In this document: piece after piece, positions 11,606-45,635 of the stretch | How the letters are laid out: each line of letters begins with the position of its first letter | How positions within the stretch are numbered: the stretch's first letter is position 1 | Virus record (IMG/VR): IMGVR_UViG_3300048065_000224 | Span: 1-53,346 of that record | Direction: 5' to 3' (one strand) | DNA length: 53,346 bases | Origin: a virus | The notes under the pieces: generated by a model | Told to the model about the DNA's origin: nothing | Database searches by the model: none | What the model saw: the letters and a program-made list of their open reading frames with translations, nothing else | Position numbers and translations under genes: made by a program

Positions 11606-14600
11606 TGGTAGCAGGAATTGACTCTCTTATATTAGCAGCCTTCTTAGCATCTGAAAAATATGCTGCAGGCAAACGAAACGAAGCTGCTAAAAAAGAGCAA
11701 CTTGAAAATCAACCTCAAGGTGTGTTCTTTGACACTAAAGATAAAAATCAACCCGTAAAGTATGGTAACCAATACAAAACATCTGGCATTCAAATTGGAT
11801 CATATGTTCCAAAAAAGGGCATAGGCAGTGCTAAACTATTTCCAGATGCTGTTTTAAGCCGAATAGTTCCAAAGCAAAAAGATCAAGGTAAAGTTCCGTA
11901 TTACCTGTCTCAAAAAACAGGAACAAAGTATGGGTCTGTATCTGATCTTCAACAAAAAGAAGGTGTAGGCACACCATATAGAACACAAGCTTTTAATAAA
12001 CAGACTGGTGAGTTTGAGTTTCCTTCTAAGGATATATTTGATGCACCTTCTGACAACAAAACTGAACAAAAGACAAATGTTTTTTTAGATGATAATTTCA
12101 AACCCACCAATAAGAAACCTGCGAATGGATACAGGGCAGTCAAAGTAACTAAAAATGGCATAACTAGCTTTGATATCAAAGAGACTTTAAAACCTACAAA
12201 AGTTGAAAAAGATAAACCAGAAGCGTTATCTACAACCACAGAAACTGTGTATTCTTTAAATGGAGAAACTGGCACGTTAAATCAACTTATTCAAAAGGGT
12301 GCAATATCTGAAGAAGAAGCAGGTGATATAACTAATATAGGTGCTGTTCCAATAGGTGAAAGAAATTTTGATATATATAATGATGGAACAAAAAGAGTAA
12401 CAAACACAGTGAGCTACAATAAATCAGCACTTGAAGTTATAGCTCCTGACGTCTTTAAAAAGGAAGAAGAAGAAAAAGAACCCGTACAGTATTATGCAAA
12501 CGTCATAGATCCCCAGACTAAAGATGCTTACCGCATACCTTTACAAGGCGGAGACTGGAAATCTGAAAAACGCAGATTAGAAAATAAAAACTTGAGAGTT
12601 TTAGATGTTTTTGATATTGATCCTGATACTAAGGTGGCAAATTATGTATTCGACGGAGTAGCCAAGAAAAAAGGAGCGACATCAGATGCAGATTCAGATG
12701 TTAGTGTTGTTGCTTCGTTTCAATTTGAAGGGCCGCTTGATCCCCCAACTCAATTTAAAATTCCAAAAAATATTGGTAAACCCGAAGTTAGAATAGAGTA
12801 TATTACACAAGCTAATAATCTGCTAGGTAATATATTAAACGATGAAAAGAAACGTGAAATATTTTACAAAAATCCTGCTTTAGTGAACAAAATAGGAGCA
12901 GGGTTATTAGATAGTATTCTCCGAGACTATACAAAAGAAGGTGTGGCAGGTGTTCCTAGCTTGAAGTTTTACATACCTATGAAAGATTTTGTGGATAGAT
13001 TTCCCTTTTTAAGCGGTATGAAAATGACTGTTGACGGTGTAACAATGGATTACCGAGACTTTTTAGTCAAAAGACAGGCAGGGCAAATAGATTTTGAAAC
13101 CACGAAAAGAATGCTTGGTATTGATCAAGCAAACAAAAAAATTGGTGTTGAAAGTAAAACTTTAGCAACAAAACAGAGTGCAGAGGTGCAAGGTAATAAA
13201 ATTATAATACCAACACTGACAACCTACACAAACCCTGCTCACACAAAAGCTGTTAACACAATTCTAAACTTCGCTAAAACTCAAGAAGAAGTTGATTATT
13301 ACAGTAACATAATACAAAACAAACTTACAGTGTACTCTGATACAATAGACCCAATGACAGGTACACCAGTGCCTAGACTTGAACAACCTCGCTTAGAGTT
13401 TTTTAATGCAATCAGCAGTCAAAAATTTAACAGAAACATTACTGTTGGTGGCACACAAATTCCTGTTAAAGGTTTTCAAATACTTCAGTCAATCTTGAAT
13501 CCCAAGTTTGAAGTCAAGGGATCTCCTTTTGCAAACTTAATAAGTCAAGACGTTAAACGTGATATGGCGAATGAATTAAGAAATGCGTCTGGGGGAGAAT
13601 TGGCTGTGATGGCAGACATATTAGACATAGCTCTTCAACAAGATGCAGGTGCAAATCTTGATATAACCCTGAATAACATTCATAACTTTAGGCAAGGTCA
13701 AGAGCGAGAAGATAAAAACAAACTTGTTGAATCATCATTTGAAATGGCTAAATCAACAAGCCAAGCCATAGCTGAAGCAGATGCCCTTGAAGGAACTTAT
13801 TTTGACAGTGAGGGCAATATGTATCCTGAAGGGTCAGGACTAGCTCAAGCGTACTTATTTGTAAATGAAGGATTGTATGCTTTTGGGTATGTAACTGACA
13901 AACTCAAACAAGGTATAGATACAGTTTTAGGAAGAAATAGTCAAGTCAACCAGTTGAGTACGTATAGCTACGACAAAGTATTTGCTGCGGCCAACAAAAG
14001 AGTAAACGATTTTACTTCTGTTCTTAATGATGATAGGACTGCAGGAAAGTACAAAGGTCAAGAGGAAGCAGAAGCAAAAGCAAGAACTGCTAACAAAGAA
14101 CAGCTAGATAAAATCGTTAGACAGATGAATGCCGTTGATGAAACGGGTAGAGCCAACGAAAAAGAAAGAGCGTTTGCTAGACGTAACTTCCACAAATACA
14201 TGCTTGCTTATCAACTTGCTGCAGCCATACAAGGTGGCACAGGAGGTAGAACCATATCTGACCAAGACGTTCAAAACATTCTTAGAGCATTTAACTTTTC
14301 AATAATAGGCAAGCCAGAAAATGAACTTGCGTCAATACGTGCAGCTAAGACAATGTTACGAAGATTAAACACATACCACACAGCAATTGCTAATCTGTCG
14401 GGCGTCGGTGGGGAAGATCCTGCTATAAAAAGACAAGCAAGACTTGTGATAGAAGCCGACAAGATGCTTTCAATATCCAAGAGTTACAGCATGAGAGATA
14501 TGACCAGTGATGACATCAGAAGCTTTATACGAGACAAAGGAAAAGCGGTAGGTGCAAACAGACCATCAGGTAATCGTGGTGGTGGCGGTGGACTCACACC

Positions 14601-14670
14601 TGCTTCAGAAGGAATACAGCAACAATTTAATTTCACTAACAAAGTTATAGACTCATTAGGAGGTAATTAA
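11605..14670 (+). CDS. Large internal virion protein 1 (1021 aa)
   Basis: The protein is hydrophilic and mixed alpha/beta in the first half, then strongly helical from about residue 650, with Ala/Lys/Glu/Arg-rich stretches such as GQEEAEAKARTANKEQ and a flexible Gly-rich segment near the C-terminus (RPSGNRGGGGGL). No catalytic motif was identified. Its size, its position between the nozzle/fibre genes and the 1579-aa protein, and the absence of tape-measure features fit an ejected podovirus core protein. The assignment to virion is inference. Confidence 0.6.
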   Translation: MVAGIDSLILAAFLASEKYAAGKRNEAAKKEQLENQPQGVFFDTKDKNQPVKYGNQYKTSGIQIGSYVPKKGIGSAKLFPDAVLSRIVPKQKDQGKVPYYLSQKTGTKYGSVSDLQQKEGVGTPYRTQAFNKQTGEFEFPSKDIFDAPSDNKTEQKTNVFLDDNFKPTNKKPANGYRAVKVTKNGITSFDIKETLKPTKVEKDKPEALSTTTETVYSLNGETGTLNQLIQKGAISEEEAGDITNIGAVPIGERNFDIYNDGTKRVTNTVSYNKSALEVIAPDVFKKEEEEKEPVQYYANVIDPQTKDAYRIPLQGGDWKSEKRRLENKNLRVLDVFDIDPDTKVANYVFDGVAKKKGATSDADSDVSVVASFQFEGPLDPPTQFKIPKNIGKPEVRIEYITQANNLLGNILNDEKKREIFYKNPALVNKIGAGLLDSILRDYTKEGVAGVPSLKFYIPMKDFVDRFPFLSGMKMTVDGVTMDYRDFLVKRQAGQIDFETTKRMLGIDQANKKIGVESKTLATKQSAEVQGNKIIIPTLTTYTNPAHTKAVNTILNFAKTQEEVDYYSNIIQNKLTVYSDTIDPMTGTPVPRLEQPRLEFFNAISSQKFNRNITVGGTQIPVKGFQILQSILNPKFEVKGSPFANLISQDVKRDMANELRNASGGELAVMADILDIALQQDAGANLDITLNNIHNFRQGQEREDKNKLVESSFEMAKSTSQAIAEADALEGTYFDSEGNMYPEGSGLAQAYLFVNEGLYAFGYVTDKLKQGIDTVLGRNSQVNQLSTYSYDKVFAAANKRVNDFTSVLNDDRTAGKYKGQEEAEAKARTANKEQLDKIVRQMNAVDETGRANEKERAFARRNFHKYMLAYQLAAAIQGGTGGRTISDQDVQNILRAFNFSIIGKPENELASIRAAKTMLRRLNTYHTAIANLSGVGGEDPAIKRQARLVIEADKMLSISKSYSMRDMTSDDIRSFIRDKGKAVGANRPSGNRGGGGGLTPASEGIQQQFNFTNKVIDSLGGN

Positions 14671-17600
14671 TGTCTGAACCCCAAATAGAAGCCATTGCAC
14701 CCGAAAAAGAACTTACGGATGCGGAGAAGCTAGGTTTCAAAAAGCTACCTACCGACACTGACGAAACTGTTATAAAGACCACTCCCAAAGAGAGCTTGGA
14801 CATTAGGCAAAAGGCATCAGGTCTTCAGCCAAAATCCGTTGAAAAGGTCGTTGAAAAGTTCACTCCCAGTATCATTCCCGGAGTCATGGATAAGGTAGAT
14901 AGAAAAGTATTTGTGGATCAAAGAAAAGTTGCTCCGTACATAGACGTTCGTTCCGTGTTAAATCCCACAGACAATACTGAAATAAAAGAAGCGATCATGT
15001 CTCTAAAAGGGTATAAAAGTGAAAGTCCTAACGCTCCAAAAGGAACGTATTTACCCTTTGTTGCAAAAGACTACGATGGAAGAATAGCTGAAATGAACAA
15101 GGGTCAAGCAACTCATTTGATTGACTCACAAGATCAAGCCGAACCTATACCATTTGAAATAGGACTGGCACAATATTTAAAAGCTCCAAAAGACTATGAG
15201 CCTTTGACTGTTTTCGGGATACCTGTTGCACAGAAGATACAGGAGTTAACAGGCTTTCCGCTAGACGAGGTAGGAGGTAAACTTGTATACATCAACAGAC
15301 TTAACAAAAAATTAAAAGACTTAGGCGTAAGCACAAGAAGTAGATATGGTATAATAAAGTACAGACTTCAAAAAGAGCCGGGAGCTTTTGACAGTAAAGT
15401 TCTTGAGCCTGCATTCAATGACTACGCCAATGCAAGAGGTTACATCAGAAATGGTGTACGCAGTGTTATAGAAGCTCCGTTATTCATAGCGGGAGAAGTT
15501 TTTGATGCAGTTAATCAAGAGTACGACAAGACTAATTTGTCTCCGATCGGCGAAGGTTTTGAGATAGAAGACCCGCTTGGAGAAACGTTGATTGAAAGTT
15601 CCGAAGGGCGAGATGAGTTGTTGGAAGATTTTTTACCTGCTCAGTCTTCTGTAATCCAAGATCATTTTGCAGCACTTGGGATTGTTGTTGATTTACCAAC
15701 TTCTCAAGCTTTAGCTTCTGATTTTTCTAACTTACCTACACGGGGTTTTGGTGTTGCAGGTGAAATGTTGATACCTGCATCGTATCTTACAAAGGTTGAA
15801 AAACTTTACGGAAAAGCAGAGATAGCTAACTTCAGACACTTCTCTGTAAAAGAAAAAAGGTTAAATCCTAAAATCACTCCAGATGACATATTAGACAAAT
15901 ACCAGACCATGAGATCAAAACAGGTAGCAGGATTTGATTTGGTCAGCCCTGTGTTTGAATTGCCTTTCGTAGGAGGCGTAGGTAAAAAGATAAATGGATA
16001 CATAAACGCAGGCAGACTAGCATCTGGCATGGACATACGGCAAGCAGGTATGGCTATGAGAGGTAGGAATCCTGCAATTTTAGAAAATAGCAAACGTATT
16101 GAGCAACAAAAACAAGATATAATATCATTTAAAGCCAGTCGCCCTGATATGTCGTACCAAGACACCAAGAAACTAGAGCTAATGGAAGCCGACCTAGAAA
16201 AAGAAATCATCGATCACAGAGCCTTAGTTCACAGAGAACATATTCCTAAGTTTATAAGAGACATAGCAGGACAAAACAAGTATATGATAATCGGTGCTGC
16301 TGCAGGAGGACAACTGGCAGAAAACACAGACTCCGATGCTAAAATATTTGAACTCGTTGGTTTGGCTACAGGTCTTGTGTACGGACAAACACGAACCTTC
16401 AGAGGAACTATGAATTGGTTCAAACAAAATATAAGGATGGGCAGGGCAGATGGAGCAACAGACAGAGCTAAAACATTTGATCTTGCAGAACAGATGGCTC
16501 GTAACATAAATACATTTTCTCCTGAATTTAGAGATGCTCTTCTCTCTCGTATAAGATACTTTGGAGATATGCAGCAACGACTCATAAGAGCAGGAGTCAG
16601 TGAAGATCTTGTTAAAAGAAGTTTTTCTAGAATAACTGGATTGACAGTTTTACAAACCTTAGAAGAAGCCGAAAGACTTAACATAAATACAAAAGACTTA
16701 AGAACCTTTTCTAATTTACAAAATCTACAAGAACTATCGAAGGAAAAGGAAGCTTTGATAGCAGAGTTACGAAGTGCGTCTATATCTGTATCCAATCTAC
16801 CTGCGGGTACACAATCTGAGAAGGTAGTAGAAGAGTTTTACAACATAGTAAAAACAGCTACAGATATGGCAGACGGTAGGCTAAAAAAACTACAAGCCGA
16901 CACTGAAACTGTAGAAAAGTTGTTGCCAATCAGAGTCAATGCTATGATAAAAGAAAACAACGGAACTTACTTGGCAGGTAGTGGGGATGAAAAACTACAG
17001 CTTAAAGATGCGTTAGAATATCTATATGACAACGGAGTGAAAGAAGTAGACTTAGAAAACGTTGCCAACAGCACCAAAAAGATAATGGACACGTCAGACA
17101 CTGTATCAACTGCTGTCAATACTGCTATCAAAAAAATAAACGGAGAGTACAACCTACAAGATGCTTTGGCTCAAACAAAAAAGGTTGTTACAGGAGTAGA
17201 TAAAAGAGTGAAGATAGTAGGTGAGCAAAAGGGTATACCTACGTTTAAAAGAGCGGGTAACTTGACTGCTGTGCTGTTAGAAAACTCTAAGAACAGAAGT
17301 TACAACTTAGCACGTGCCAATTACAAGATACTAGACAAAGCAGAGTTTGTTACTAAAAATGGATTACCTGCAGGTAGAAACGCAAAGACTTCAGCAAACG
17401 AGATTGTAAGCTCTTTATTCGAAAACATGGATGTAATTGACATTCAAGATTTTGGAGACAAGGGTATAGGTCGTTCTAAAAGAGCAAGACTATTGAACGC
17501 TCTCGAAGGCATAGGTGACTCTACGTTTCAAAGAATACAACAAGGAACGGGTGCTGAAAGTATAAGTGAAGTTGTGGAAAGTGTGTTGGCAATGGCTAGA

Positions 17601-19409
17601 AACGATAAAAACTTTACATTTAAAAAAGGTCTTTCAGAAAAAATGCAAGCTTTGCAATACATAAGTGAAACGAAAAATGTTAGCACAATAGACGTCAACT
17701 TTGACCAGCTTAACGAACTAAAACACAGCGTCAATAGATTATTGTACAAAGCTAAGAACAGTGGGGATGCAACAAGAGAAGCAGCCTTTGCAGGTCTTAT
17801 GAGAAATGTAAAAGAAAGATTTGATTTTTTCAGAACAGAAGATGGCAAGAGCATTGGTCAACTCTACATAAAAGATGGTGACAGAAGAGTTCCTGTTAAA
17901 GCTTTCTTGGCTGAAGGCGATGCCAAGTACAGTGATCATATGGACAGATACTACGGCAACGACGTCATAGCAGGTTGGCTCGGACTTGGTAAAAAGGATG
18001 GTCGAAAAAACAGAGTACCTAATCAAGATTTTCCTGTAGGTGTTAAGTATGCAAAAAATCCCGTAACATGGTTGGACATGGATCAAATAGCAAACATGGA
18101 TCGTGCAACTAAAGGTCTTGACTTTAATCAAAAGATTAATCAAGGGTTCGGAACATTCAACGAAAAGCTTGGAGTGCATCGTATTGACATAAGCACAGAG
18201 GATGGTAAAGCCGTACAGAAGGCTTTTGAGCTTAAAGGTGCAGAGTGGTTAATCGGTGAATATCGAAAAGGAAACTTAAACTACAATGAACTAAAAGACA
18301 AGATTGATAACATACAAGCCAACTTAAAAGGTGTTGATGCTAACGGAAAAGAAGTATCATTGATTAATCTTAATAAGATAATAGATGATAAATTAGGATA
18401 TGCACCTTCTAATATCAAAAAAGAAATCTATACTGAAGGGGAAGCCATAGCAGATAGGTTTGTGGAAAAACAAGTTTCTGTAGTGAAAGTACAAAGTAAA
18501 GATGTCCAAAAGGGAATTACTGCGGCCACAAATATTATCAAGACATTTACAGCCAATAATATAGACTCAAAGAGTATACTTGAAGGTCTGTTAGGCGGTG
18601 GTACTATGAGACTGAACTCAATAAAAAATTCCTTGATCAAAAACGGTATAGCTAAAGAGAAAGTAGATGAAGTATTAGAGAACTTACTTTTGACTCAACT
18701 TGACAATACTGTTTTTGAAAAGACTGGTAGAATGTCTCTGATAGGGGGTGCAAAGAATGCAAAAATGATCCCCGAATATAACATGAACGTAGATCAACTA
18801 AAAGACTTAGTTGGTTTTTCAGACCCAACAAAAGCAGACGCAGTAAAAGGAATAATTGGAGAAAGCAAATACCAATTCTACACAGACATGATCGGATTCT
18901 TAGAAAACGAAAGTATAAGGACTATTAAAAACGCAAACTTTACTGGAGTTCCCAAGAACCTATCTATAGAAAGTTACATCAGTAGATTCTATTCTATAAA
19001 CAGAGGGGTTATATCTGCACGATATGTTGGAACTGAAGCCGTGCTGCAACAGTTCAGACTTAAAAATCACAGTATGTTTAAGGCGTTGTTGCTAGACAGA
19101 GAAGCAGGTGACTTGTTTCTGAAGATGGTCAAATCAGGAAAACCACTTGAACTAAACGACGAAAAAAGATTTTTTAATCTTATGGGTACAGCTTTGGCTA
19201 AAGCAATTAACACTAACGAAGAGCAAGCTAGTAAGGTAACCATAGATCTAGGAAACTCACACCAGTTTGGTATAACCGAATACCAACTTGCAAGAGATCC
19301 TAGAATACAATCTGCATACGAAGGTATCAGAGATCCACTCAAAGAGAGACTTCAAGAAAAACAATTCCTATTTGACGAGCAAGGCAGACAAATAGTGGAT
19401 GGAAGATAA
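14670..19409 (+). CDS. Large internal virion protein 2 (1579 aa)
   Basis: This is the longest gene in the window. The N-terminus is Glu/Lys/Pro-rich, residues about 260-420 contain amphipathic and hydrophobic helices, and most of residues 580-1500 is predicted alpha-helical. Segment IGAAAGGQLAENTDSDAKIF and the following FELVGLATGLVYG could be membrane-active. Large helical proteins of this kind form the DNA-ejection conduit in podoviruses. I see no transglycosylase motif here; that candidate lies in the protein ending at 45635. The start overlaps the previous stop by one base. Confidence 0.6.
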   Translation: MSEPQIEAIAPEKELTDAEKLGFKKLPTDTDETVIKTTPKESLDIRQKASGLQPKSVEKVVEKFTPSIIPGVMDKVDRKVFVDQRKVAPYIDVRSVLNPTDNTEIKEAIMSLKGYKSESPNAPKGTYLPFVAKDYDGRIAEMNKGQATHLIDSQDQAEPIPFEIGLAQYLKAPKDYEPLTVFGIPVAQKIQELTGFPLDEVGGKLVYINRLNKKLKDLGVSTRSRYGIIKYRLQKEPGAFDSKVLEPAFNDYANARGYIRNGVRSVIEAPLFIAGEVFDAVNQEYDKTNLSPIGEGFEIEDPLGETLIESSEGRDELLEDFLPAQSSVIQDHFAALGIVVDLPTSQALASDFSNLPTRGFGVAGEMLIPASYLTKVEKLYGKAEIANFRHFSVKEKRLNPKITPDDILDKYQTMRSKQVAGFDLVSPVFELPFVGGVGKKINGYINAGRLASGMDIRQAGMAMRGRNPAILENSKRIEQQKQDIISFKASRPDMSYQDTKKLELMEADLEKEIIDHRALVHREHIPKFIRDIAGQNKYMIIGAAAGGQLAENTDSDAKIFELVGLATGLVYGQTRTFRGTMNWFKQNIRMGRADGATDRAKTFDLAEQMARNINTFSPEFRDALLSRIRYFGDMQQRLIRAGVSEDLVKRSFSRITGLTVLQTLEEAERLNINTKDLRTFSNLQNLQELSKEKEALIAELRSASISVSNLPAGTQSEKVVEEFYNIVKTATDMADGRLKKLQADTETVEKLLPIRVNAMIKENNGTYLAGSGDEKLQLKDALEYLYDNGVKEVDLENVANSTKKIMDTSDTVSTAVNTAIKKINGEYNLQDALAQTKKVVTGVDKRVKIVGEQKGIPTFKRAGNLTAVLLENSKNRSYNLARANYKILDKAEFVTKNGLPAGRNAKTSANEIVSSLFENMDVIDIQDFGDKGIGRSKRARLLNALEGIGDSTFQRIQQGTGAESISEVVESVLAMARNDKNFTFKKGLSEKMQALQYISETKNVSTIDVNFDQLNELKHSVNRLLYKAKNSGDATREAAFAGLMRNVKERFDFFRTEDGKSIGQLYIKDGDRRVPVKAFLAEGDAKYSDHMDRYYGNDVIAGWLGLGKKDGRKNRVPNQDFPVGVKYAKNPVTWLDMDQIANMDRATKGLDFNQKINQGFGTFNEKLGVHRIDISTEDGKAVQKAFELKGAEWLIGEYRKGNLNYNELKDKIDNIQANLKGVDANGKEVSLINLNKIIDDKLGYAPSNIKKEIYTEGEAIADRFVEKQVSVVKVQSKDVQKGITAATNIIKTFTANNIDSKSILEGLLGGGTMRLNSIKNSLIKNGIAKEKVDEVLENLLLTQLDNTVFEKTGRMSLIGGAKNAKMIPEYNMNVDQLKDLVGFSDPTKADAVKGIIGESKYQFYTDMIGFLENESIRTIKNANFTGVPKNLSIESYISRFYSINRGVISARYVGTEAVLQQFRLKNHSMFKALLLDREAGDLFLKMVKSGKPLELNDEKRFFNLMGTALAKAINTNEEQASKVTIDLGNSHQFGITEYQLARDPRIQSAYEGIRDPLKERLQEKQFLFDEQGRQIVDGR

Positions 19410-35863: not shown

Positions 35864-35889
35864 TAAAACTTTAAAGAATACCTTTAACG

Positions 35890-35924
35890 AACGCCTTAGA
35901 TTAGTTTCTAGGGCGTTTTTCTTT
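35890..35924 (+). terminator. Rho-independent terminator
   Basis: AACGCCTTAGA pairs with TCTAGGGCGTT (eleven pairs, one wobble) around a six-base loop, followed by TTTTTCTTT. It ends the early plus-strand module. Confidence 0.85.
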
Positions 35925-35966
35925 GCTTAACTCTAATAAATACCTAAACGGTTGTAATTGCTAGGT

Positions 35967-35995
35967 TTGTTTCTTTGGTATTGTTTTGGTATATG
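35967..35995 (+). promoter_or_regulatory. Weak sigma70-type promoter candidate
   Basis: TTGTTT, a 17-base spacer and TATATG with a TGG extension just upstream. The match is moderate and no gene follows closely, so this may drive a noncoding transcript or be chance. Confidence 0.3.
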
Positions 35996-36253
35996 CTCGC
36001 AATCATACTACCAAACGCAGACTTTAAGGTTAAGTTATACAACTTATAAAAATGTCAATGGCAGTTTGTGTGCGTGCATACACGAAAGGTATACATCAAA
36101 GGTTAAACTTTTGGGAGTTTGTAAGTTGTCTATGCTAGCCTTTGGAAATCTGTTACAGGTATAAGGGTTGGCAAGTGCCACCGGGGGGTACTGGGTACTT
36201 GTATGCAATGTCGGCATATTTTTACCCAAAATGGTTACTTGTACAACTTACGG

Positions 36254-36322
36254 TGCAACGCATTACGTACAACCCTATTTGCAACGCATTACGTACAACC
36301 CTATTTGCAACGTATTATGTAG
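36254..36322 (+). repeat. 26-base tandem repeat, 2.6 copies
   Basis: The unit TGCAACGCATTACGTACAAC plus CCTATT occurs twice exactly (36254-36279, 36280-36305), then a partial, diverged third copy (TGCAACGTATTATGTAG). Each full unit contains the palindrome TACGTA. The layout resembles iterons or a cluster of regulator sites. Confidence 0.9.
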
Positions 36323-36413
36323 ACGTGGTGGGGGTATACGTTGTATTTCCCCGGAGGATCTACTCCGATTGTATCCATCAGATCCACTTTTGTCAATAAA
36401 ATAATTATTTTTC

Positions 36414-36442
36414 TTGACGTATGCGTGCTAAGTTCCTATTAT
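36414..36442 (+). promoter_or_regulatory. Sigma70-type promoter for the packaging/head operon
   Basis: TTGACG (36414-36419), a 17-base spacer and TATTAT (36437-36442) lie about 110 bases before the first gene of the packaging module. It is likely a major promoter for terminase and head genes. Confidence 0.75.
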
Positions 36443-36552
36443 ATAGGTAACAAAGCATCATTTAAAGCGTATGCAACCAATCATATCACATCTAAACCAG
36501 TGCATTTTGGCTTTATTTGAAATGATCCTTTGTTTTTATCTAAGGAAACTCC

Positions 36553-36774
36553 ATGTTTGAAGCATTTGTACTGATTTGTTTAGTAGGACAGCCTACTATG
36601 AATGCAAATTGTGAAGAACTTATGGATACACGAGGCCCGTACAAGACTCACGACAAGTGTTTATCACGAGTATACGAGATCCAAAGGGAATTACCCTTGT
36701 ACAAACCTCACATGGAAGCAAGAGCATACCGTTGTGACGAATTTACTCCCGAAACAAAGAAGCAAAGAGCGTGA
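36553..36774 (+). CDS. Small exported-type Cys protein
   Basis: The 73-aa protein begins with a hydrophobic segment (FEAFVLICLVG) that could be a signal or membrane anchor, followed by a soluble part with Cys residues (NANCEEL, HDKCLSR, AYRCDEF). The same build (FVL... CL... AY.C) appears in the 60-aa protein at 50618. It follows AAGGAAACTCC and lies first behind the 36414 promoter. Function is unknown; an envelope location is inferred. Confidence 0.65.
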   Translation: MFEAFVLICLVGQPTMNANCEELMDTRGPYKTHDKCLSRVYEIQRELPLYKPHMEARAYRCDEFTPETKKQRA

Positions 36775-37144
36775 AATAAGCCCTCAACAAGAGGAATTTC
36801 TCGATCATCTCTTTGAAAATGGTGGCAATGTCACCGATGCAGCCCTAAAAGCAGGTTATGCAAAGGGGTCTGTGACATGGCTACGCAATAGTTTAGCAGA
36901 TGAGATCATCCGACGCACCCAAAACGTGCTGTCTATGAACGCATTTAAGGCGGCTACACGCCTTGTAACGACAATTGACAACCCAGTACCCGAAAGAGGT
37001 GACGACCTACGCTTCAGGGCGGCAGAATCGCTGTTAAACAGGGTCGGACTGGGTAAACAAGAAACAACTAACGTAAATGTACAGGCAGTACACGGTATTG
37101 TCCTGTTGCCACCCAAGAAAGACGTAGTCATCGATGGAAATTGA
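36734..37144 (+). CDS. terS: Terminase small subunit
   Basis: The protein contains SPQQEEFLDHLFENGGNVTD and AALKAGYAKGSVTWLRNS, a helix-turn-helix as in small terminases, then a helical oligomerisation part and LRFRAAESLLNRVGLGKQET. It would bind phage DNA and start packaging with TerL. The start is uncertain. GTG 36734 (136 aa) is used here because an ATG at 36602 would overlap the preceding gene by 173 bases with shadow-like sequence. It lies directly upstream of terL, as usual. Confidence 0.75.
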   Translation: MTNLLPKQRSKEREISPQQEEFLDHLFENGGNVTDAALKAGYAKGSVTWLRNSLADEIIRRTQNVLSMNAFKAATRLVTTIDNPVPERGDDLRFRAAESLLNRVGLGKQETTNVNVQAVHGIVLLPPKKDVVIDGN

Positions 37145-37250
37145 GTGGTGGCAAGCACTCTTGGTTACAATGGTATCGATTAACACAACAATCAACCTTA
37201 TTGTGTTCTTTAGAGGTAGGAAAATAATGAAAAGGGAACGTAATGGCTGA
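37134..37250 (+). CDS. 38-aa membrane peptide bridging terS and terL
   Basis: This short frame starts in the last codons of terS (11-base overlap) and stops 8 bases into terL, filling the gap between them. It encodes MEIEWWQALLVTMVSINTTI, then NLIVFFRGRKIMKRERNG: one hydrophobic span followed by a basic tail, a good single-pass topology with the tail inside. The overlaps on both sides suggest translational coupling. Function unknown. Confidence 0.55.
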   Translation: MEIEWWQALLVTMVSINTTINLIVFFRGRKIMKRERNG

Positions 37251-38928
37251 TACACCCAAGCGTGGTCGCCCAAAGAAAGACCCCAACGCTCCTAAATCCA
37301 GATATTATTACAGTCCAGAAGTCAAAGCACGTAAGCAAACACAACGCAGACTATCTGAAGCAAAGAAACGAGCAGCAAAGGTAACGCAACAGGCTGAAAG
37401 CAAACGACGTTACGCACGAAAGCTTGAAGAAAAAATAACCAAAATAGATAAGGCTCTGAACAGCAATGAAACTACCGTCATTGATAAAAAAGATCTTGAC
37501 CAACTTCCAGATGTCGTTGAACAACTGGTGGATGGGCGTGAAATTATTTTTAAGCCAAACGAAGGACCTCAAGAAGAATTTCTTTCCTCAAGTGAAAGAG
37601 ATGTTCTGTACGGTGGTTCAGCAGGTGGAGGAAAAAGCTTTGCCCTTCTTGCAGACCCGTTACGGTATTGCCACAATAGCAACCATCGTGGGCTTCTTCT
37701 TAGGCGTACTCTGGATGAGCTAACAGAACTTATTGACAAATCTCGGCAGTTGTACCCACGGGCGTACCCCGGTGCAAAGTTCAGAGAGTCAAAGTCAACA
37801 TGGCACTTTCCGTCAGGTGCAACGATTTGGTTTACGTATCTTGACAAAGACAAAGACGTAACACGATTTCAGGGTCAGTCCTTTAACTGGATAGGCATTG
37901 ATGAGATAACCCAATATCCCTCGCCTTATGTTTGGGATTATCTCCGTTCACGACTTAGAGCAACTGATCCTGAACTACAAAAAAATCTGTACATGCGTTG
38001 TACAGCGAACCCCGGAGGGGTCGGAGGTTGGTGGGTAAAAAAGATGTATATTGACCCATCACAATATGGTTCGACTTTTCCTGCAATGGATATCGAAACA
38101 GGCAGACCTTTTGTATGGCCCAAAGGGCATGAGAAGGAAGGTGAACCCCTGTTTTATCGTAGGTTCATACCTGCACGTCTAACAGACAACCCATACTTGT
38201 TGGCTGACGGACAATACGAAGCGATGTTGCGTTCGCTACCCGAAGTCGAGCGTAAGCGACTTCTTGAAGGCGATTGGGAAGTAACGGAAGGTGCAGCCTT
38301 CCCAGAGTTCAGTAGAAGTAAACATGTTACACCGTATTTTGACCTTCCGCCAAACTTCCCACGAATACGAGCAGCCGACTACGGCTATGCAAGTCCTTCT
38401 TGCGTTCTTTGGGCTGCTATTGATTGGGATAATAATATCTGGGTTTATAGGGAGTTATACGTAAAACAGTTGACAGCAGAAGAGTTAGCTGATAGAATAC
38501 TAGAAGTAGAACAAGAAGACCCGACTCCCCACTATACAGTACTTGACTCATCGTGTTGGAACAAAACAGGCTTTGGTCCTTCCATAGCCGAAACAATGAT
38601 GAGATGTGGAGTGCGTTGGACACCCTCAGACAGAAACAGACTTCAAGGTAAAATGGAAATACATCGTAGGCTTGCTGATGACCCTCGAACAAACGAACCT
38701 AGACTACGAATATTTCCGAACTGTGTCAATCTTATCAAGCAGCTATCAGGCATACCTCTTAGCAAAACAAATGCAGAAGATGTGGACACAAAGGCAGAAG
38801 ATCACGCATACGATGCACTGCGATATATGTTAATGACAAGGATGACAGGATATGTGTCGATTCATAAAACGCTTGGTGGTATCAAGAATCAGGTCTACCA
38901 AATGCAAGACCAAACATTTGGGTATTAA
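37243..38928 (+). CDS. terL: Terminase large subunit
   Basis: The 561-aa packaging motor has Walker A GGSAGGGKS (124-132), Walker B WIGIDE (216-221), a coupling motif TANPGG, and an RNase-H-like nuclease with Asp379 (AADYG), Asp435 (VLDSS) and Asp524 (HAYDAL). Residues 1-75 are an unusual basic, helical extension that begins KRGRPKKDP, an AT-hook-like GRP core. It pumps DNA into the prohead with TerS and the portal. The start follows AAAAGGGAACGTA. Confidence 0.95.
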   Translation: MADTPKRGRPKKDPNAPKSRYYYSPEVKARKQTQRRLSEAKKRAAKVTQQAESKRRYARKLEEKITKIDKALNSNETTVIDKKDLDQLPDVVEQLVDGREIIFKPNEGPQEEFLSSSERDVLYGGSAGGGKSFALLADPLRYCHNSNHRGLLLRRTLDELTELIDKSRQLYPRAYPGAKFRESKSTWHFPSGATIWFTYLDKDKDVTRFQGQSFNWIGIDEITQYPSPYVWDYLRSRLRATDPELQKNLYMRCTANPGGVGGWWVKKMYIDPSQYGSTFPAMDIETGRPFVWPKGHEKEGEPLFYRRFIPARLTDNPYLLADGQYEAMLRSLPEVERKRLLEGDWEVTEGAAFPEFSRSKHVTPYFDLPPNFPRIRAADYGYASPSCVLWAAIDWDNNIWVYRELYVKQLTAEELADRILEVEQEDPTPHYTVLDSSCWNKTGFGPSIAETMMRCGVRWTPSDRNRLQGKMEIHRRLADDPRTNEPRLRIFPNCVNLIKQLSGIPLSKTNAEDVDTKAEDHAYDALRYMLMTRMTGYVSIHKTLGGIKNQVYQMQDQTFGY

Positions 38929-38932
38929 GTAA

Positions 38933-40909
38933 ATGGCAAAAGGTATTACATTTGAACCACAATTTGAAGCTATTCTATCTGATAAGGGTAGAATAAGAGG
39001 GGAGTCTCTTAAGACTACTCCTATAGGTCAAATATTCAGTAACACAACTGATAGAAAAAATCTTGCAAAACTTCTTACAAAAGCAGGATTAGAAAAATAC
39101 ACTATAGATGATATTTTTGGGAAGAATACACGAAAGTTTGTAGAAGAGTTAGTTTACACTAAAAAATTAACTAACGCTCAAAAGAAAGATTTAATAGGCC
39201 CATTCAAACCACTTCTTGCTGAAGTTGGTATATCTGCACAAGGAACAACAAACCCACTTCGTTCACACATGACAAATGTCGTGGGTGATTCTGTAATGAA
39301 GTCACAAGGATTTGGTACTGATCCTTTAAGACTTATACCTGCAAACTATCCATCACAAGCTTATCAAGCTTTAAAAAACTTAGCAGCAAAATATAATGCA
39401 GCAGGAAGACAAGAAGAGAAAACATTTCTACTTATGTTGATGTTGGGTGGTTACAGACCTTCCGATTTTAAAAATATAAAATTTGAAAACATTGATTTTG
39501 AAACAGGCTTAGTACAAGACGTAAAATTAAAGACAGACACAGCAGGTACAATTAACTTAGCATATATGCCTGAAGCTCAAAGAGATATTATAAAATCTTA
39601 CATGGAAAGCACGGGAAGAACAAAAGGTTTGGTTTTTCAAAAAGTAAATTCTCTTGTTGATAATATAAATGAAGATTTAACTAAAACAAATGTAAACATA
39701 AAATACTTAGTCCAATCAAAGAAAGAGCTTGAATCAAGACCTATGTCTATCTATGATTTAAGAAGAATAAAAGAAAGTGACTATACAGCAGCAGGCTACG
39801 ATCCTAACAGTTACATTAGAAAGTTAGCAACGTGGCGACCTAAAAAAGGTAACGTAGAACAATACATAGCAGGTGTTACAGTTGGTGGACAAATAGAAGA
39901 TGCTAACGCAAAAGCTTTTGCACCTTACGTTCTATTAACAGAAGGCAACCTAACACAAGACGGCACAAAAAATCCTGCACAGTTCTTAGAAGATGTGGGC
40001 GTTAAAACAACTGAATATACTCAGCAGTATATGACAACAAAAAAGTCTTTTAAAAGTCTTCCTACATTTAAACAAAAGGAAGTTGTAAAGTTTTTTCCAA
40101 ATGTAGCATACCCAGACGAAGTAGACGGTATGTCTATATCTGACCCACAAGACATCAAAATTTTAAGTCCTGAAAATGCTGAGTTAAATCAACAAAAAGC
40201 AGGTCTGCAATTACAAAAAGAAATTGCACAATCAGGATCAGAACTTATTGCAGCAAAACAACAATACTTAATGGATTTACAACAGGCAGGCGACGTTGAC
40301 GAACAGATATCTTCTGAACAAGATAAACAAGCTGCCCAGAAAAAACAAAGTAAACTTAATCAAGCTTTAGAAAAAGGCAACAAGTTTTTAGATTGGGCAG
40401 GTAACAATCTTAAAAGTATAACTGGTACTAGCTTAACAGCTTTAGGAGCTTTTGGACTCGCAGAAGAAGCCAAGTCAGACTTTTTAAAGTATAAGGAGCG
40501 TGGATTTAGTGACGTGGGTGCAGGATTAGGTGCAGGTGTAGAAACAATAAGAGATGTTGCAATTGACACAGTAGTGGGTCTTAACGTTCCAAGAAATATT
40601 GCACAGCTTAGTCTTATAGGTAGTCCTGCGAGTGAGGGTGCAGATATTTTACCTGCAGGTGAACCTAAAAGAATGGGCATGGAGTCCGAGTCTGCAGAAT
40701 TTTTGAATCAGATGCAAACTAGTTTTCAACCTCCAGAAGAAGGAGGATCACAAGCTTTGAATATAATCGAACAGGATACCAACGTAGGTGACAGAATGAG
40801 TACATTTGGCAGAACGCCTGATGTATCTCCGGGGTTTGTTACCCCACCTTCTCGATCAGAACTAGCTGACGAGACACAACGGCAACAAAACTTTATGGGA
40901 GTAACTTAA
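38933..40909 (+). CDS. Tyrosine-recombinase-like domain fused to a virion-type protein
   Basis: The 658-aa protein lies between terL and portal. Residues about 140-320 look like a tyrosine recombinase catalytic domain: Arg175 (LMLGGYRPSDFKNIKFENID), Lys198 or Lys200, Tyr274-x-x-Arg277 (YDLRR, His replaced by Tyr), Trp301 (LATWRP) and Tyr311 (VEQYIAG). Spacings parallel XerD and Cre, where Trp also occurs at the fifth position. The remaining 340 residues are Gln/Ala-rich helices, a Gly/Ala segment (GLGAGVETI) and a flexible tail, like a head protein. Whether it recombines DNA or uses the fold structurally is unknown. Confidence 0.6.
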   Translation: MAKGITFEPQFEAILSDKGRIRGESLKTTPIGQIFSNTTDRKNLAKLLTKAGLEKYTIDDIFGKNTRKFVEELVYTKKLTNAQKKDLIGPFKPLLAEVGISAQGTTNPLRSHMTNVVGDSVMKSQGFGTDPLRLIPANYPSQAYQALKNLAAKYNAAGRQEEKTFLLMLMLGGYRPSDFKNIKFENIDFETGLVQDVKLKTDTAGTINLAYMPEAQRDIIKSYMESTGRTKGLVFQKVNSLVDNINEDLTKTNVNIKYLVQSKKELESRPMSIYDLRRIKESDYTAAGYDPNSYIRKLATWRPKKGNVEQYIAGVTVGGQIEDANAKAFAPYVLLTEGNLTQDGTKNPAQFLEDVGVKTTEYTQQYMTTKKSFKSLPTFKQKEVVKFFPNVAYPDEVDGMSISDPQDIKILSPENAELNQQKAGLQLQKEIAQSGSELIAAKQQYLMDLQQAGDVDEQISSEQDKQAAQKKQSKLNQALEKGNKFLDWAGNNLKSITGTSLTALGAFGLAEEAKSDFLKYKERGFSDVGAGLGAGVETIRDVAIDTVVGLNVPRNIAQLSLIGSPASEGADILPAGEPKRMGMESESAEFLNQMQTSFQPPEEGGSQALNIIEQDTNVGDRMSTFGRTPDVSPGFVTPPSRSELADETQRQQNFMGVT

Positions 40910-40910
40910 T

Positions 40911-41129
40911 ATGCCTAACAATAACTATAATTATGGTGCAGCTTATATTATGGGATCAGATAAGACATCTGTAAACGATGATATGGGTTCTAAGCAACTA
41001 TACAGAGAAGGTCTTGAATTTACTACAGCAGTAGACCAAGATGCTTTACAGGTTGACATGCCAAAGAAGCAAACTAAACCTACAGTCGAAGCTTCTTTAT
41101 TTAAAATGGCTGAAGAAAGAGACTATTAA
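40911..41129 (+). CDS. Small hypothetical protein before portal
   Basis: The 72-aa protein (MPNNNYNYGAAYIMGSDKTS...) is polar with an Asn/Tyr-rich N-terminus and no recognised motif. It starts one base after the previous stop and ends 17 bases before the portal gene, so it belongs to the head operon. It may be a minor virion or assembly protein. Confidence 0.55.
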   Translation: MPNNNYNYGAAYIMGSDKTSVNDDMGSKQLYREGLEFTTAVDQDALQVDMPKKQTKPTVEASLFKMAEERDY

Positions 41130-41146
41130 TAACACATAGGTAAATC

Positions 41147-43279
41147 ATGGCTGATGAAAACTTTCTTCAACCTGCTGATGATACTGCAATACCTGTAGAA
41201 AATCCTAGCGAACAGATGCCCGGATTAGCAGGGTATATCAAAAGCAAATTTGAAGATTCAGAAAATGGCAGACGCAGTTATGAACTACGTTGGTTGCAAG
41301 CCTTTAAAAACTACAGAGGTATTTATGATTCGTCTACTCAGTATAGAGATTCGGAACGTTCTCGTGTATTTATAAAGGTAACTAAAACAAAAGTTCTTGC
41401 TGCATATGGGCAAATAATCGATATACTTTTTTCTAACAAGAAGTTTCCGATAGTTGTTGAGCCAACTCCAGTACCAGAAGGTATTGCAGAGTTTGCACAT
41501 CAAACAACACCTCTAGATGAAATAGTAGAACAAGATCCATACGGTTTTGAAGGAGACGGGAGAGATTTACCTCCCGGTGCTACGGAAGCAAGCAAAAAAG
41601 ATTTAGACTTTTTAGGTGGGCTGCAAGGTAGATACGCTAACGCTAACTTGTCTCCCGGACCTTCTCTTGGTGGCGAACCACAAATAAGTCCTGCACAAAA
41701 AACAGCACTTAATTTAGAAAAACTTATACACGATCAACTAACAGATACTGACGCTGTTACCGTCTTACGTGATGCTATTTTTGAATCTTGTTTACTTGGA
41801 ACAGGGATAGTAAAAGGTCCGTTTAATTCTTACAAACGAGTTCATAAATGGGATAGAGATGATAATGGAGAAAAAACTTATGCTCCATATGAAAAGATTG
41901 TACCAAGAATTGAGTATGTGTCTTTATGGGATTTTCATCCTGATCCATCAGCAACAAGCATAGAAGATTGTGAATACGTCATACAAAGACATCGTATGAA
42001 CAGACAACAGCTTCGTGCTTTAATAAACAGACCTTATTTTTACAAAGATGCCATAGAAGAGTGTCTAGCTAAAGGTCCTAACTACGAAGACAAGTACTAC
42101 GAAGATACTATCAGAGAAGACGACACCGAGCCATACTTTCAAGAAAACAGGTATGAAGTACTTGAGTATTGGGGTGTTATTGACAAAAAACACGCCGATG
42201 AAATCGGTATGGATGGTATAGAGGAGATATCTGAGTTAGAACAAATCCAAGTTAATGTTTGGACTTGTGGCAACATGATACTTCGCTGCGTCCTTAATCC
42301 GTTTATGCCTGCACGAATACCATACCAAGCATTTCCATACGAGACTAATCCATACCAGTTGTGGGGAGTTGGCGTAGCAGAAAACATGGAGTTTTCTCAA
42401 AAGTTAATGAATGGTCACTATCGTATGGCTATTGATAACTTAGCACTTGCAGGTAATCTAGTATTTGACATTGACGAAGCAAGCTTAGTTCCCGGACAAA
42501 ACATGGATATATTCCCCGGTAAGATATTTAGACGACAGTCGGGTGTAACTGGCACAGCAATCAACGGATTAAAGTTTCCAAACACTGCACCTGAAAACAT
42601 ACAAATGTACCAAATATCTCGACAACTTGCAGACGAAGATACAGGAATACCATCTATATTACATGGGCAAACAGGTGTGACAGGCACGGGTAGAACAGCA
42701 TCAGGTTTATCTATGTTGCTTGGTGGTGCAAGCTTATCTTTAAAAACTGTTATAAAGAATATAGATGACCACTTGTTGAAACCGATGGGTGAAGCATACT
42801 TTCAGTGGAATATGCAGTTTACTGATAACGTACCCGAAATAGAAGGCGATCTTGAGATCAAACCTCGTGGTACTGCAGCAGTGATGCAAAAAGAGGTACG
42901 TAGTCAAAGACTAACAACCCTGTTGCAAACTGCAAGTAACCCAATGCTTGCACCTTTTGTAAAGATACCAAACCTTATGAGAGAGCTTGCGATAGCACAA
43001 GATATAGATCCAGATAGTTTGGTTAACGACGTAAGCGAAGCACAGATATTCGCAGAAATACTTAGAGGACTTCAAAATGCTCAACAAGAAGCAAGCCAAC
43101 AACCTCAATCCCCTGATCAACAACAGTCAGGCATGGAACAGTCTGGAGGAGTACCTGCAGGAGCTAACCCAAGTGACGATTCAGGCGTTGGTGGCGGCAC
43201 GATCGGAACTGGAAGTGTTCCAACTGCAGGGGAAACTGGCTTTACTGGAACAGATCAAGAAACTCAAGGACAATCATAA
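41147..43279 (+). CDS. Portal protein
   Basis: The 710-aa protein has the sequence character of podovirus portals: RWLQAFKNYRGIYD, SRVFIKVTKTKVLAAYGQII, YVSLWDFHPDPSATSIEDC, then PFMPARIPYQAFPYE, ADEDTGIPSILHGQTGVTGT and a conserved helical stem region. It forms the dodecameric DNA entry ring and binds TerL and the tail adaptor. The C-terminal 70 residues are a Gln/Ser/Gly-rich flexible tail. Order terL, accessory, portal, scaffold, capsid fits. Confidence 0.88.
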   Translation: MADENFLQPADDTAIPVENPSEQMPGLAGYIKSKFEDSENGRRSYELRWLQAFKNYRGIYDSSTQYRDSERSRVFIKVTKTKVLAAYGQIIDILFSNKKFPIVVEPTPVPEGIAEFAHQTTPLDEIVEQDPYGFEGDGRDLPPGATEASKKDLDFLGGLQGRYANANLSPGPSLGGEPQISPAQKTALNLEKLIHDQLTDTDAVTVLRDAIFESCLLGTGIVKGPFNSYKRVHKWDRDDNGEKTYAPYEKIVPRIEYVSLWDFHPDPSATSIEDCEYVIQRHRMNRQQLRALINRPYFYKDAIEECLAKGPNYEDKYYEDTIREDDTEPYFQENRYEVLEYWGVIDKKHADEIGMDGIEEISELEQIQVNVWTCGNMILRCVLNPFMPARIPYQAFPYETNPYQLWGVGVAENMEFSQKLMNGHYRMAIDNLALAGNLVFDIDEASLVPGQNMDIFPGKIFRRQSGVTGTAINGLKFPNTAPENIQMYQISRQLADEDTGIPSILHGQTGVTGTGRTASGLSMLLGGASLSLKTVIKNIDDHLLKPMGEAYFQWNMQFTDNVPEIEGDLEIKPRGTAAVMQKEVRSQRLTTLLQTASNPMLAPFVKIPNLMRELAIAQDIDPDSLVNDVSEAQIFAEILRGLQNAQQEASQQPQSPDQQQSGMEQSGGVPAGANPSDDSGVGGGTIGTGSVPTAGETGFTGTDQETQGQS

Positions 43280-43301: not shown

Positions 43302-45635
43302 ATGGCTAATATACTTGAAAGATATATAAATAATTTATTTGAAAGAGAATTAGGTCTAGGAAAGGCTATAGCTCCGTACGTTCCAATTCCTGCAATTCCG
43401 TTTGCACCTAATGTTCCAAGTCCGTTTGACTTTGATACTAGACGAAGAACTAGTTTTCCTGTATATGGAAGATCTCCTACGACTCCAACTCCTGATTTAG
43501 ATATATTTGATGAGCCTGATGGTTCTGAAGCACCTCCAGAAATAACAATAGAAACTATAACAGGAGATTTATCTAGTTATATTAATCAACCTACAACTCC
43601 ACAAAGTTTTGTAGATAAACAGTTGGGTCTTGAGGTTAGTAAAGAATTAGCTTCTGGGCAAGACAGAGTCACGGGTATGGGAGGTGCATTGACTCAATTT
43701 GCAAGTCTAACAGGTTTATCAGCATCTATGATCGATGCAATCGGCGAAAAGTCAAAGCAAAATCTTGAATCAATCGTTGCTAATGCAGCACTAGGTATTC
43801 CCGGATACGGAATAGGCAGAGTTAACAATCAAACTGTAGGTATATCTCCGGGAGGTAGAATATCTGGAACTGTACCAACTAATCTAACAACTGAGCAAAT
43901 GAATCAAATACAAGATGTTTTGGGAGGTAAATCTGGAGCATTAGGACCTGCTATGCAAGAATATTCGGTAGCAGGCGGTAGACTTGATATGGGCAAACCT
44001 CAAACGCAAGCCATGTTAGATTTTGAAAAAACTGTAATAGATGCAAAAGGTTTATCAATTGAGCAAAAAGCAGGTCTATTAGGGTATGACAGATTAACTA
44101 ATCCGTTTGAACGTTCTCGAATGACGCAAAATTACTACACAATGACTCCGCTCCAAGAAATTCTGGAGAACAAACAAAAAACAGCAGAAAATAGAGAGGG
44201 TATGAGTTCTACATCAGGATCTATGTCTATGGGTCTTGAGACAGATATAGACGCACAGCAGAGTCAAAAAAATCCTATGGGAATAAACATTGGTATTGAT
44301 ATGGCAAATATAACAGGGCCCACTACAACTGTAGATTCACAAGGTTATGATTTAGGTGGCGGTTATGGAGGACCTACAGGAGGACCTAGTGGCTTAGATG
44401 TATCCTCAGAAGTTAGTTCTGGTGGTTATTCTGACAATGAAGCAGGCGACAATCAAGACGGTGGCTTTGGTGGTGGTGGTTGGACTGCATATGGTGGCAA
44501 AATAGGAAATTCTGACAAAGGATTTGTATCAAAGACTCAGACAATAAAAGGTGTAGGTCTTATTAAGCCTGAAGAAACTTTTGTTGAAACTGATATGGTT
44601 AGAGACAGATTTGAATTTGATGCAGCAGATGGAGACTACGTTGTTAACGGTCCTGCTTCAAAAGAAAATGAAGGTGAGATAATCGGTCTTGTAAATTCTG
44701 CTATAAACGAATTAAAAAAAGAAGGGGTTGACATACGTGTAGGAAATCCTAAAATAAAAGATAAGAACAAAGTTCCGTTAATTGTAGCTTCCTCAGAAAT
44801 ATACATACCTAAAGTGGTAGCTGAGAAAATAGGTTATCCTATACTAGACAAAATAAATGAGTCTGGCAAAGCTGAAGTAACTCGCTTAAAGAATGAGCTT
44901 GGAAATAATTCTCCAGATGACGATCGACAAGAAGCTTATGAAGGAATGCGTGTAAGAAACCCTCAACAAGGATTTTTGTTTCGACGACCTGAACTTAATC
45001 TAACTAATCCTAATACTGATAAACCCCAAGAAGATGCTTTTGTTCCGGGAATATCTGACGAACCAGTAGAAATGACTCTAGATCAACAAAGATTTTTTAA
45101 TGACTACGAGTTTGGGGATATTAAAAAAGCAATTAAAAAAACAGAGATACAAGGCTTTGAAAAAAATCCGTTTATATTTACAGGCGTAAAGGCTAAGAAG
45201 GGTAAAAGTAGTTCTGCATTTGGTCCTATGCAAATAACCAAAAGTTTAATAGAGGACTTTGAAAGCAGAAGTCCTGATTATAAAACTCTAAGTAACGAAG
45301 AAAAAAAATACTTACAAGCTTTAAAATTACAAGGTGAAGACAAGATAAACAAAGAACTGTACGGTGTTCTTAAACGTGGTCCTAAAGAGATGAGACGAGA
45401 CGTTGATGCAAAAAAAGTATATGGCAAAAAAGCACAAGGATTGAAGCCTTACGGAAAAGGCACTATTGATCCTGAGATGCACAAAAAGTATTACGATAAA
45501 ATTGCTGATGTCATTCTTCTTCACAAATTAAAAGATCACAAAACTATAGAAGACGCACTTGCATCTTACGGAGAAGGTGCAGGCTACGGAGAAAAAGTCT
45601 TAAATGATTTATTGGATATTATACAGATAAAATAA
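43302..45635 (+). CDS. Large virion protein with C-terminal transglycosylase-like domain
   Basis: The 777-aa protein has a Pro/Thr-rich N-terminus, an Ala/Gly-rich helical part, a glycine-rich linker (about 360-420), and a DAADGDYVVNGPASKENEGE module. The last 170 residues resemble a lytic transglycosylase: a candidate catalytic Glu near 615 (KKTEIQGF), SSAFGPMQITKSL (about 637-649) and ALASYGEGAGYGEK, equivalent to the family's GxMQI and AYNxG motifs. It probably cuts peptidoglycan during DNA entry. The unusual place between portal and scaffold implies a head or neck component. Confidence 0.7.
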   Translation: MANILERYINNLFERELGLGKAIAPYVPIPAIPFAPNVPSPFDFDTRRRTSFPVYGRSPTTPTPDLDIFDEPDGSEAPPEITIETITGDLSSYINQPTTPQSFVDKQLGLEVSKELASGQDRVTGMGGALTQFASLTGLSASMIDAIGEKSKQNLESIVANAALGIPGYGIGRVNNQTVGISPGGRISGTVPTNLTTEQMNQIQDVLGGKSGALGPAMQEYSVAGGRLDMGKPQTQAMLDFEKTVIDAKGLSIEQKAGLLGYDRLTNPFERSRMTQNYYTMTPLQEILENKQKTAENREGMSSTSGSMSMGLETDIDAQQSQKNPMGINIGIDMANITGPTTTVDSQGYDLGGGYGGPTGGPSGLDVSSEVSSGGYSDNEAGDNQDGGFGGGGWTAYGGKIGNSDKGFVSKTQTIKGVGLIKPEETFVETDMVRDRFEFDAADGDYVVNGPASKENEGEIIGLVNSAINELKKEGVDIRVGNPKIKDKNKVPLIVASSEIYIPKVVAEKIGYPILDKINESGKAEVTRLKNELGNNSPDDDRQEAYEGMRVRNPQQGFLFRRPELNLTNPNTDKPQEDAFVPGISDEPVEMTLDQQRFFNDYEFGDIKKAIKKTEIQGFEKNPFIFTGVKAKKGKSSSAFGPMQITKSLIEDFESRSPDYKTLSNEEKKYLQALKLQGEDKINKELYGVLKRGPKEMRRDVDAKKVYGKKAQGLKPYGKGTIDPEMHKKYYDKIADVILLHKLKDHKTIEDALASYGEGAGYGEKVLNDLLDIIQIK

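Follow-up and report, generated by a model that had tools for sequence, protein, structure and literature searches.

A tyrosine-recombinase domain in a hypervariable protein encoded between terL and portal in a clade of marine phages

The window analysed here, a viral DNA of 53,346 nucleotides (nt) that makes up the whole of IMG/VR record IMGVR_UViG_3300048065_000224, encodes between terL and the portal gene a protein of 658 amino acids (aa) in which the presence of a tyrosine-recombinase domain is confirmed by sequence profiles and a predicted structure. The protein belongs to a family, referred to below as the slot family, for which recombinase fold, invariant catalytic triad, position between terL and portal, swapping of alleles as cassettes, purifying selection within alleles and the lack of a second recognisable integrase are all established. 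A whole clade within a dominant marine phage group keeps a recombinase in its head operon and leaves the triad untouched, while the remaining sequence is replaced, even within one sample. No tyrosine recombinase with a fixed place in a tailed-phage head operon that is at once hypervariable and modular was found in the open-access literature searched, and earlier reports are possible; the recombinase domain itself has long been known.

Recombinase domain and catalytic residues

A first-pass annotation of the window had proposed a tyrosine-recombinase catalytic domain in this open reading frame (ORF), and the ORF, its coordinates and every residue named (Arg175, Lys198, Lys200, Tyr274, Arg277, Trp301 and Tyr311) are as it described them; it had not anticipated that the family would be hypervariable, that cassettes would be swapped or that the clade would lack another recognisable integrase. 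Compared with profiles as a single sequence, the protein matches PF00589 (Phage_integrase) at an E-value (E) of 4.5e-4, which lies below the Pfam curated cut-off, and the integrase family phrog_1 at E 4.9e-6 over residues 151–342, and it matches XerA weakly; a profile built from the family finds tyrosine recombinases in the PDB, including XerA, at E 1.6e-8. A chance motif match is ruled out by the profile, structure and invariance tests.

The fold predicted by AlphaFold2 (AF2) is that of a tyrosine recombinase. The model of residues 1–400, built from 69 sequences, has a predicted local distance difference test score (pLDDT) of 83.1 and a predicted template-modelling score (pTM) of 0.69, an earlier model from 4 sequences having been unusable (pLDDT 37). 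Its top Foldseek matches in the PDB are Xer proteins, phage and Tn1549 integrases, Cre and lambda Int, and the named top matches in BFVD are integrases; the template-modelling (TM) scores of the PDB matches are modest (0.24–0.47), a probable reason being that no single superposition fits both the N- and the C-terminal domain of the model. With VIA, residues 131–333 align with XerA (4a8e) at Z 11.0 and 3.3 Å over 168 residues, and the Brujita integrase aligns from residue 17 at Z 12.3, with a poor whole-chain fit (root-mean-square deviation 15.0 over 249). Residues 1–125 are modelled as helices with pLDDT mostly 70–95, and confidence drops around residues 301–320, so that the exact placement of Tyr311 is only predicted.

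Four close relatives of the window protein are 71–91% identical to it; most homologues are too diverged for direct sequence search, and terL was therefore used as the handle, yielding 80 IMG/VR loci with a terL 78–98% identical to that of the window. In every locus with enough downstream sequence the next large gene after terL encodes a family member, followed by a protein of about 72 aa and the portal protein. The slot proteins, which are 545–759 aa long where full-length and 11–44% identical to the window protein apart from its closest relatives, form one BLAST-connected family. The family profile matches 80 of the 80 testable relatives, including two (L037 and L061) that are overlooked by the default hmmsearch filters and are clear members with the filters off. 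Searches by tblastn with three family members as queries found no cultured relative of the slot protein.

Against this divergence, the catalytic residues stand out. In an alignment of 63 members with a mean column identity of 15%, the sole invariant columns are Met1, Arg175, Arg277 and Tyr311, so that neither of the two refuting outcomes named in the initial proposal, a structure lacking the recombinase fold or free variation of these three catalytic residues, was observed. Both arginines are also invariant in two further alignments (72 rows, L-INS-i; 69 rows), and Tyr311 is aligned in 66 rows of the 69-row alignment, the remaining three having a Tyr nearby in the same segment. The box III position, occupied by Trp301 in the window, holds His in 38 of the 63 members, Trp in 5 and other residues in about one third, and the Lys of the beta2–beta3 hairpin (Lys198/Lys200) falls in a gapped block of columns, with Lys at position 200 in 24 of the 43 rows that have no gap there. 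Because the box II His is missing family-wide, membership of the superfamily rests on the fold and the Arg/Arg/Tyr triad.

Cassette replacement, module shuffling and gene context

The extent to which alleles differ between closely related phages is best seen in 74 loci: of the 340 pairs whose terL identity is 95% or more, 300 (88%) have slot-protein residues 1–345 that are less than 35% identical or undetectably similar. The window and three other loci (L062, L110 and L111) are about 93–99% identical through most of terL and mostly unalignable as DNA from about 38,935 to 40,400, and for L062 and L110 identity is back to 98–99% from about 40,830. Along most of the flank on either side of the slot gene, identity between allele types is 95–99%, and the adjoining 72-aa protein is kept across recombinase alleles. 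Judged from these alignments, the alleles are exchanged as cassettes. Among alleles of one type, purifying selection acts on the N-module (ratio of nonsynonymous to synonymous substitution rates, dN/dS, 0.05–0.33), and the diversity therefore comes mainly from the replacement of whole types. Differing alleles co-occur in sample 3300044676 (L002 and L111, terL 97.9% identical). L025 and L026 (IMG/VR 3300022074), also sampled together, form a natural pair, their terL being 99.6% identical and their recombinase alleles looking unrelated.

The two ends of the protein reshuffle independently, as module comparison shows: in 16 pairs the C-module is common (at least 55% identity) and the N-modules are unlike (at most 30%), and in 11 pairs the reverse holds. 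The C-module (residues 401–658) consists, in order, of a coiled-coil-like part, a Gly/Ala/Pro-rich hydrophobic stretch and a tail with a GF motif. That it is of virion type, as first proposed, is supported indirectly by the late-operon position, its independent swapping and the co-variation of the slot protein with candidate ejection proteins. This co-variation is seen in two genomes from the same metagenome, G002 and G003, compared outside the first 12 kb of G002, which lies beyond G003, so that the tail genes there are left out. Their terL (99.6%), portal (99.0%) and replication-module proteins (94–99.7%) are nearly identical, whereas the slot proteins are undetectably similar and three other large ORFs are 30% (754/681 aa), 23% (1565/1631 aa) and, over part of their length, 43% (827/850 aa) identical. 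By place and size these three correspond to the 1021-, 1579- and 777-aa proteins of the window, for which the same divergence is seen in other complete genomes.

Features of the window, with nucleotide positions and the evidence for each assignment
Feature	Position	Strand	Basis
1021-aa hypervariable large protein; candidate ejection protein	11605..14670	+	
1579-aa hypervariable large protein; candidate ejection protein	14670..19409	+	
Conserved non-coding region (~690 bp) before terS	35864..36552	+	terminator-/promoter-like signals, repeats, dyads
terS	36602..37144	+	phrog_51
terL, upstream neighbour of recombinase ORF	37243..38928	+	4-nt spacing
Tyrosine-recombinase-like protein, 658 aa, terL–portal slot	38933..40909	+	ORF, profile, predicted structure
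N-terminal helical domain, residues 1–125; by position, core-binding domain	38933..39307	+	AF2 helices
Tyrosine-recombinase catalytic domain, residues 131–334	39323..39934	+	VIA vs XerA 4a8e, phrog_1
Arg175, box I Arg	39455..39457	+	invariant 63/63, 72/72
Tyr274 at box II His position	39752..39754	+	column S/Y/K/E/T/G/R/A
Arg277, box II Arg	39761..39763	+	invariant 63/63, 72/72
Trp301, box III His/Trp position	39833..39835	+	His 38/63, Trp 5/63
Tyr311, predicted nucleophile	39863..39865	+	63/63; 66/69 in another alignment
Separately swappable C-module, residues 401–658	40133..40906	+	module comparison
Conserved 72-aa protein between recombinase and portal	40911..41129	+	
Portal protein	41147..43279	+	phrog_332 and phrog_1216
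777-aa protein, co-variable with recombinase between near-identical phages; candidate ejection protein	43302..45635	+	

The recombinase ORF lies in a tightly packed late operon, 4 nt from terL and 1 nt from the 72-aa ORF, and the order terS–terL–recombinase–72-aa protein–portal, found in the relatives with coverage, places it among the head genes throughout. An exact 127-bp direct repeat at its ends (1–127 and 53220–53346) marks the window as a complete circular map, about 53.2 kb in length. A C5 cytosine DNA methyltransferase is encoded in the early region (30264–31436; PF00145, E 7e-34) and was detected in some relatives and not in others.

None of the cultured HMO-2011-type phages examined carries the slot gene, and neither do 46 HTVC115P-like loci, 37 of which have a measurable terL–portal gap of 631–1384 bp. 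Other genes occupy the interval in L010 (MW202701; 225 aa), L009 (849 aa) and L011 (an SGNH hydrolase, 535 aa), and the terL–portal slot may be a general place of insertion in the wider group.

Candidate roles of the slot recombinase

We tentatively favour, as the leading reading at somewhat less than even confidence, an active recombinase that is made late with the head proteins, carried in the virion, and engaged in strand exchange on incoming DNA. The tyrosine recombinase would be expressed together with the head proteins, and its C-terminal module would most likely direct it into the virion beside other ejection proteins; it would enter the cell together with the phage DNA and there catalyse a site-specific strand exchange by which the incoming, terminally redundant genome would be circularised or else integrated. 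The enzyme would thereby act before any phage gene expression and replace the ordinary early integrase that relatives carry elsewhere, and the swapping of the DNA-recognising and catalytic module as a cassette would fit diversifying selection on specificity, for example for target sites or hosts. Virion carriage, ejection, the reaction and its DNA target are what we infer here, and carriage is proposed because it would be strange for an enzyme required as infection begins to be made late unless it travelled in the particle; the same reasoning has been applied to 80alpha gp44 (PMC7290940). A little more cautiously still, we suggest that a clade of short-tailed marine phages packages and ejects a polymorphic active recombinase whose allele cassettes switch DNA specificity between near-identical phages. 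A virion-delivered site-specific recombination system of this kind has not been described for tailed phages in the open-access literature searched. The retention of such an enzyme by a whole clade makes it possible to test how the DNA of an infecting phage becomes circular or integrated ahead of gene expression, and why the polymorphism of a recombinase should match that of ejection proteins; the family also provides a large natural set of recombinases, possibly with distinct specificities.

The DNA on which such an enzyme might act was sought in several ways. The non-coding region before terS holds a terminator-like stem (35889–35918), a promoter-like site (36414), three 26-bp direct repeats (36241–36321) and two TTRTACAA dyads separated by about 200 bp. 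The dyads before terS, GTTRTACAASTTA, number 17 genome-wide against 9.4 expected, only slightly above chance. As it is conserved across recombinase allele types, this region more probably serves as a late promoter, in packaging or as an origin than as a target specific to one allele. An allele-specific core site beside the gene was rejected on the conservation of the flanks between allele types, a tRNA-type phage attachment site (attP) on the lack of a tRNA gene and a T-loop motif not above chance, and a DNA inversion system on the lack of a strong long inverted repeat pair, the listed pairs being 70–94% complementary and chance-like. A search against Rfam gave no match.

Several results count against the favoured proposal. 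The searches found no recombinase target site, and by eye the two dyads of the non-coding region do not clearly track allele type. The residue at the box II His position varies among S, Y, K, E, T, G, R and A and is His in 0 of the 63 members, so that the earlier statement that only this His is changed, to Tyr, holds for the window and not for the family, in which Tyr accounts for 11 of 63. The C-module resembles no known virion family convincingly, and no PHROG matched more than one of 22 C-modules; the roughly 340 residues first described as virion-like do form a separate, swappable module. Scattered PHROG matches of C-modules (head scaffolding at E 0.0024, head morphogenesis, tape measure) were too weak to use. 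The three hypervariable large proteins are likely an ejection-protein set, an assignment made from position and size only. Finally, the reciprocity between integrase and slot gene rests on three cultured phages compared with the window clade, and both a canonical integrase and the slot gene are missing from HTVC115P, RHph_N3_19 and phiM6.

The main rival, which we consider unlikely while taking it seriously, is that an ordinary phage integrase was relocated to the late operon of this clade and acquired an extension at its C-terminus, with alleles swapped because att sites differ between hosts. The swapping of integrase genes is ordinary among related temperate phages, and the nearest folds and profiles are indeed those of integrases and Xer proteins. 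No second PF00589 match, and hence no other recognised integrase, was found in the window and 12 relatives, whereas HMO-2011, CRP-603 and MW202701 each encode a canonical integrase at another place (PF00589, E 1e-21 to 2e-14) and no slot-family member; in this small sample the slot gene may have taken over from the ordinary integrase of its relatives. Against this rival, the adjacent spacers of 4 and 1 nt leave no non-coding room for an attP next to the gene, although one may lie within the gene or elsewhere, and the flanks stay conserved across alleles. The late-operon position, the C-terminal part of about 310 residues that is shuffled independently and the family-wide loss of the box II His also speak against it. 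No close terL occurs in 84,980 GTDB bacterial and archaeal species genomes (one genome per species), so that no prophage was seen, and no Pfam lysogeny gene was recognised among the early proteins scanned.

A packaging-associated resolvase that acts in the producing cell, resolving dimers or concatemers or processing ends, would explain the terL–portal position in all relatives, and baculovirus VLF-1, a tyrosine recombinase that forms part of the nucleocapsid and is involved in genome packaging (PMC11654684, PMC3649998), gives it a model. We nevertheless hold it to be rather improbable, since hypervariability is not expected of a housekeeping enzyme with one site per genome when terL and the non-coding region before terS are themselves conserved, and the cultured relatives package without the slot gene. 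More doubtful again is an effector that is injected to act on the DNA of the host or of rivals, in which case the polymorphism of the recombinase would stem from conflict and not from processing of the phage's own genome. Near-identical phages of one sample do carry differing alleles, and the polymorphism and module shuffling resemble those of polymorphic and polyvalent injected phage proteins (PMC5512222, PMC5576092), yet there is no immunity partner, the adjacent 72-aa protein being conserved across alleles. A tyrosine recombinase, moreover, seldom leaves lasting breaks.

A catalytically dead fold repurposed for DNA binding, an option raised in the first-pass annotation, finds a parallel in the SPbeta MrpR and phi3T SroF regulators, which have this fold in common with the slot protein (8a0a and 9rgl are among the VIA matches); it is very unlikely because Arg175, Arg277 and Tyr311 are invariant amid near-total sequence change, which together with the predicted recombinase structure counts strongly against it. 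A telomere resolvase (protelomerase) forming hairpin ends can be set aside almost entirely, given that the box II Tyr is a minority state, that the inverted repeats, sought with a distance of up to 6 kb between arms, include no long perfect palindrome, and that the direct repeat at the contig ends is consistent with a circular map.

Comparison with known systems

The slot family shares with Xer/XerA and the phage integrases (PF00589, phrog_1) the catalytic fold, the order and spacing of the Arg, Arg and Tyr residues and a predicted N-terminal helical domain, and differs from them in its lack of a box II His, its large C-terminal part, its head-operon position, its hypervariable cassette alleles and the absence of adjoining attP space. 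Cre of phage P1 is alike in its box III Trp (Trp315) and in similar spacings, and can circularise redundant P1 DNA; unlike the slot family it has the box II His and is not known to have such a C-module or to lie in a head operon, and no lox-like site was identified in the window. At the box II His position type IB topoisomerases have Lys, and the protelomerases TelA and ResT have Tyr; the latter two share with the window this Tyr and the Y-x-x-R motif, and differ in that the Tyr is not family-wide in the slot family and no palindromic telomere was found.

Within the wider phage group itself, an ordinary integrase has been published for parts of the HMO-2011-type phages (PMC9038755). This canonical int is likewise a tyrosine recombinase, and differs from the slot family in lying upstream of the replication module, in its frames of 302–389 aa and in its strong PF00589 match. 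Baculovirus VLF-1 belongs to the same superfamily and is a nucleocapsid component acting in packaging, whereas the slot protein, a candidate virion component, comes from a different virus realm; outside baculo-like viruses, neither packaging nor the formation of virions is known to involve tyrosine recombinases (PMC11654684). A further parallel is 80alpha gp44, a late-operon ejection protein encoded between the portal and capsid genes, and thus, like the slot protein, beside portal, which is carried in the virion, is reported to bind DNA ends non-specifically and has been proposed to promote circularisation, the circularising recombinase there being unknown (PMC7290940). It provides a precedent for the logic of virion-carried circularisation that we propose for the slot recombinase.
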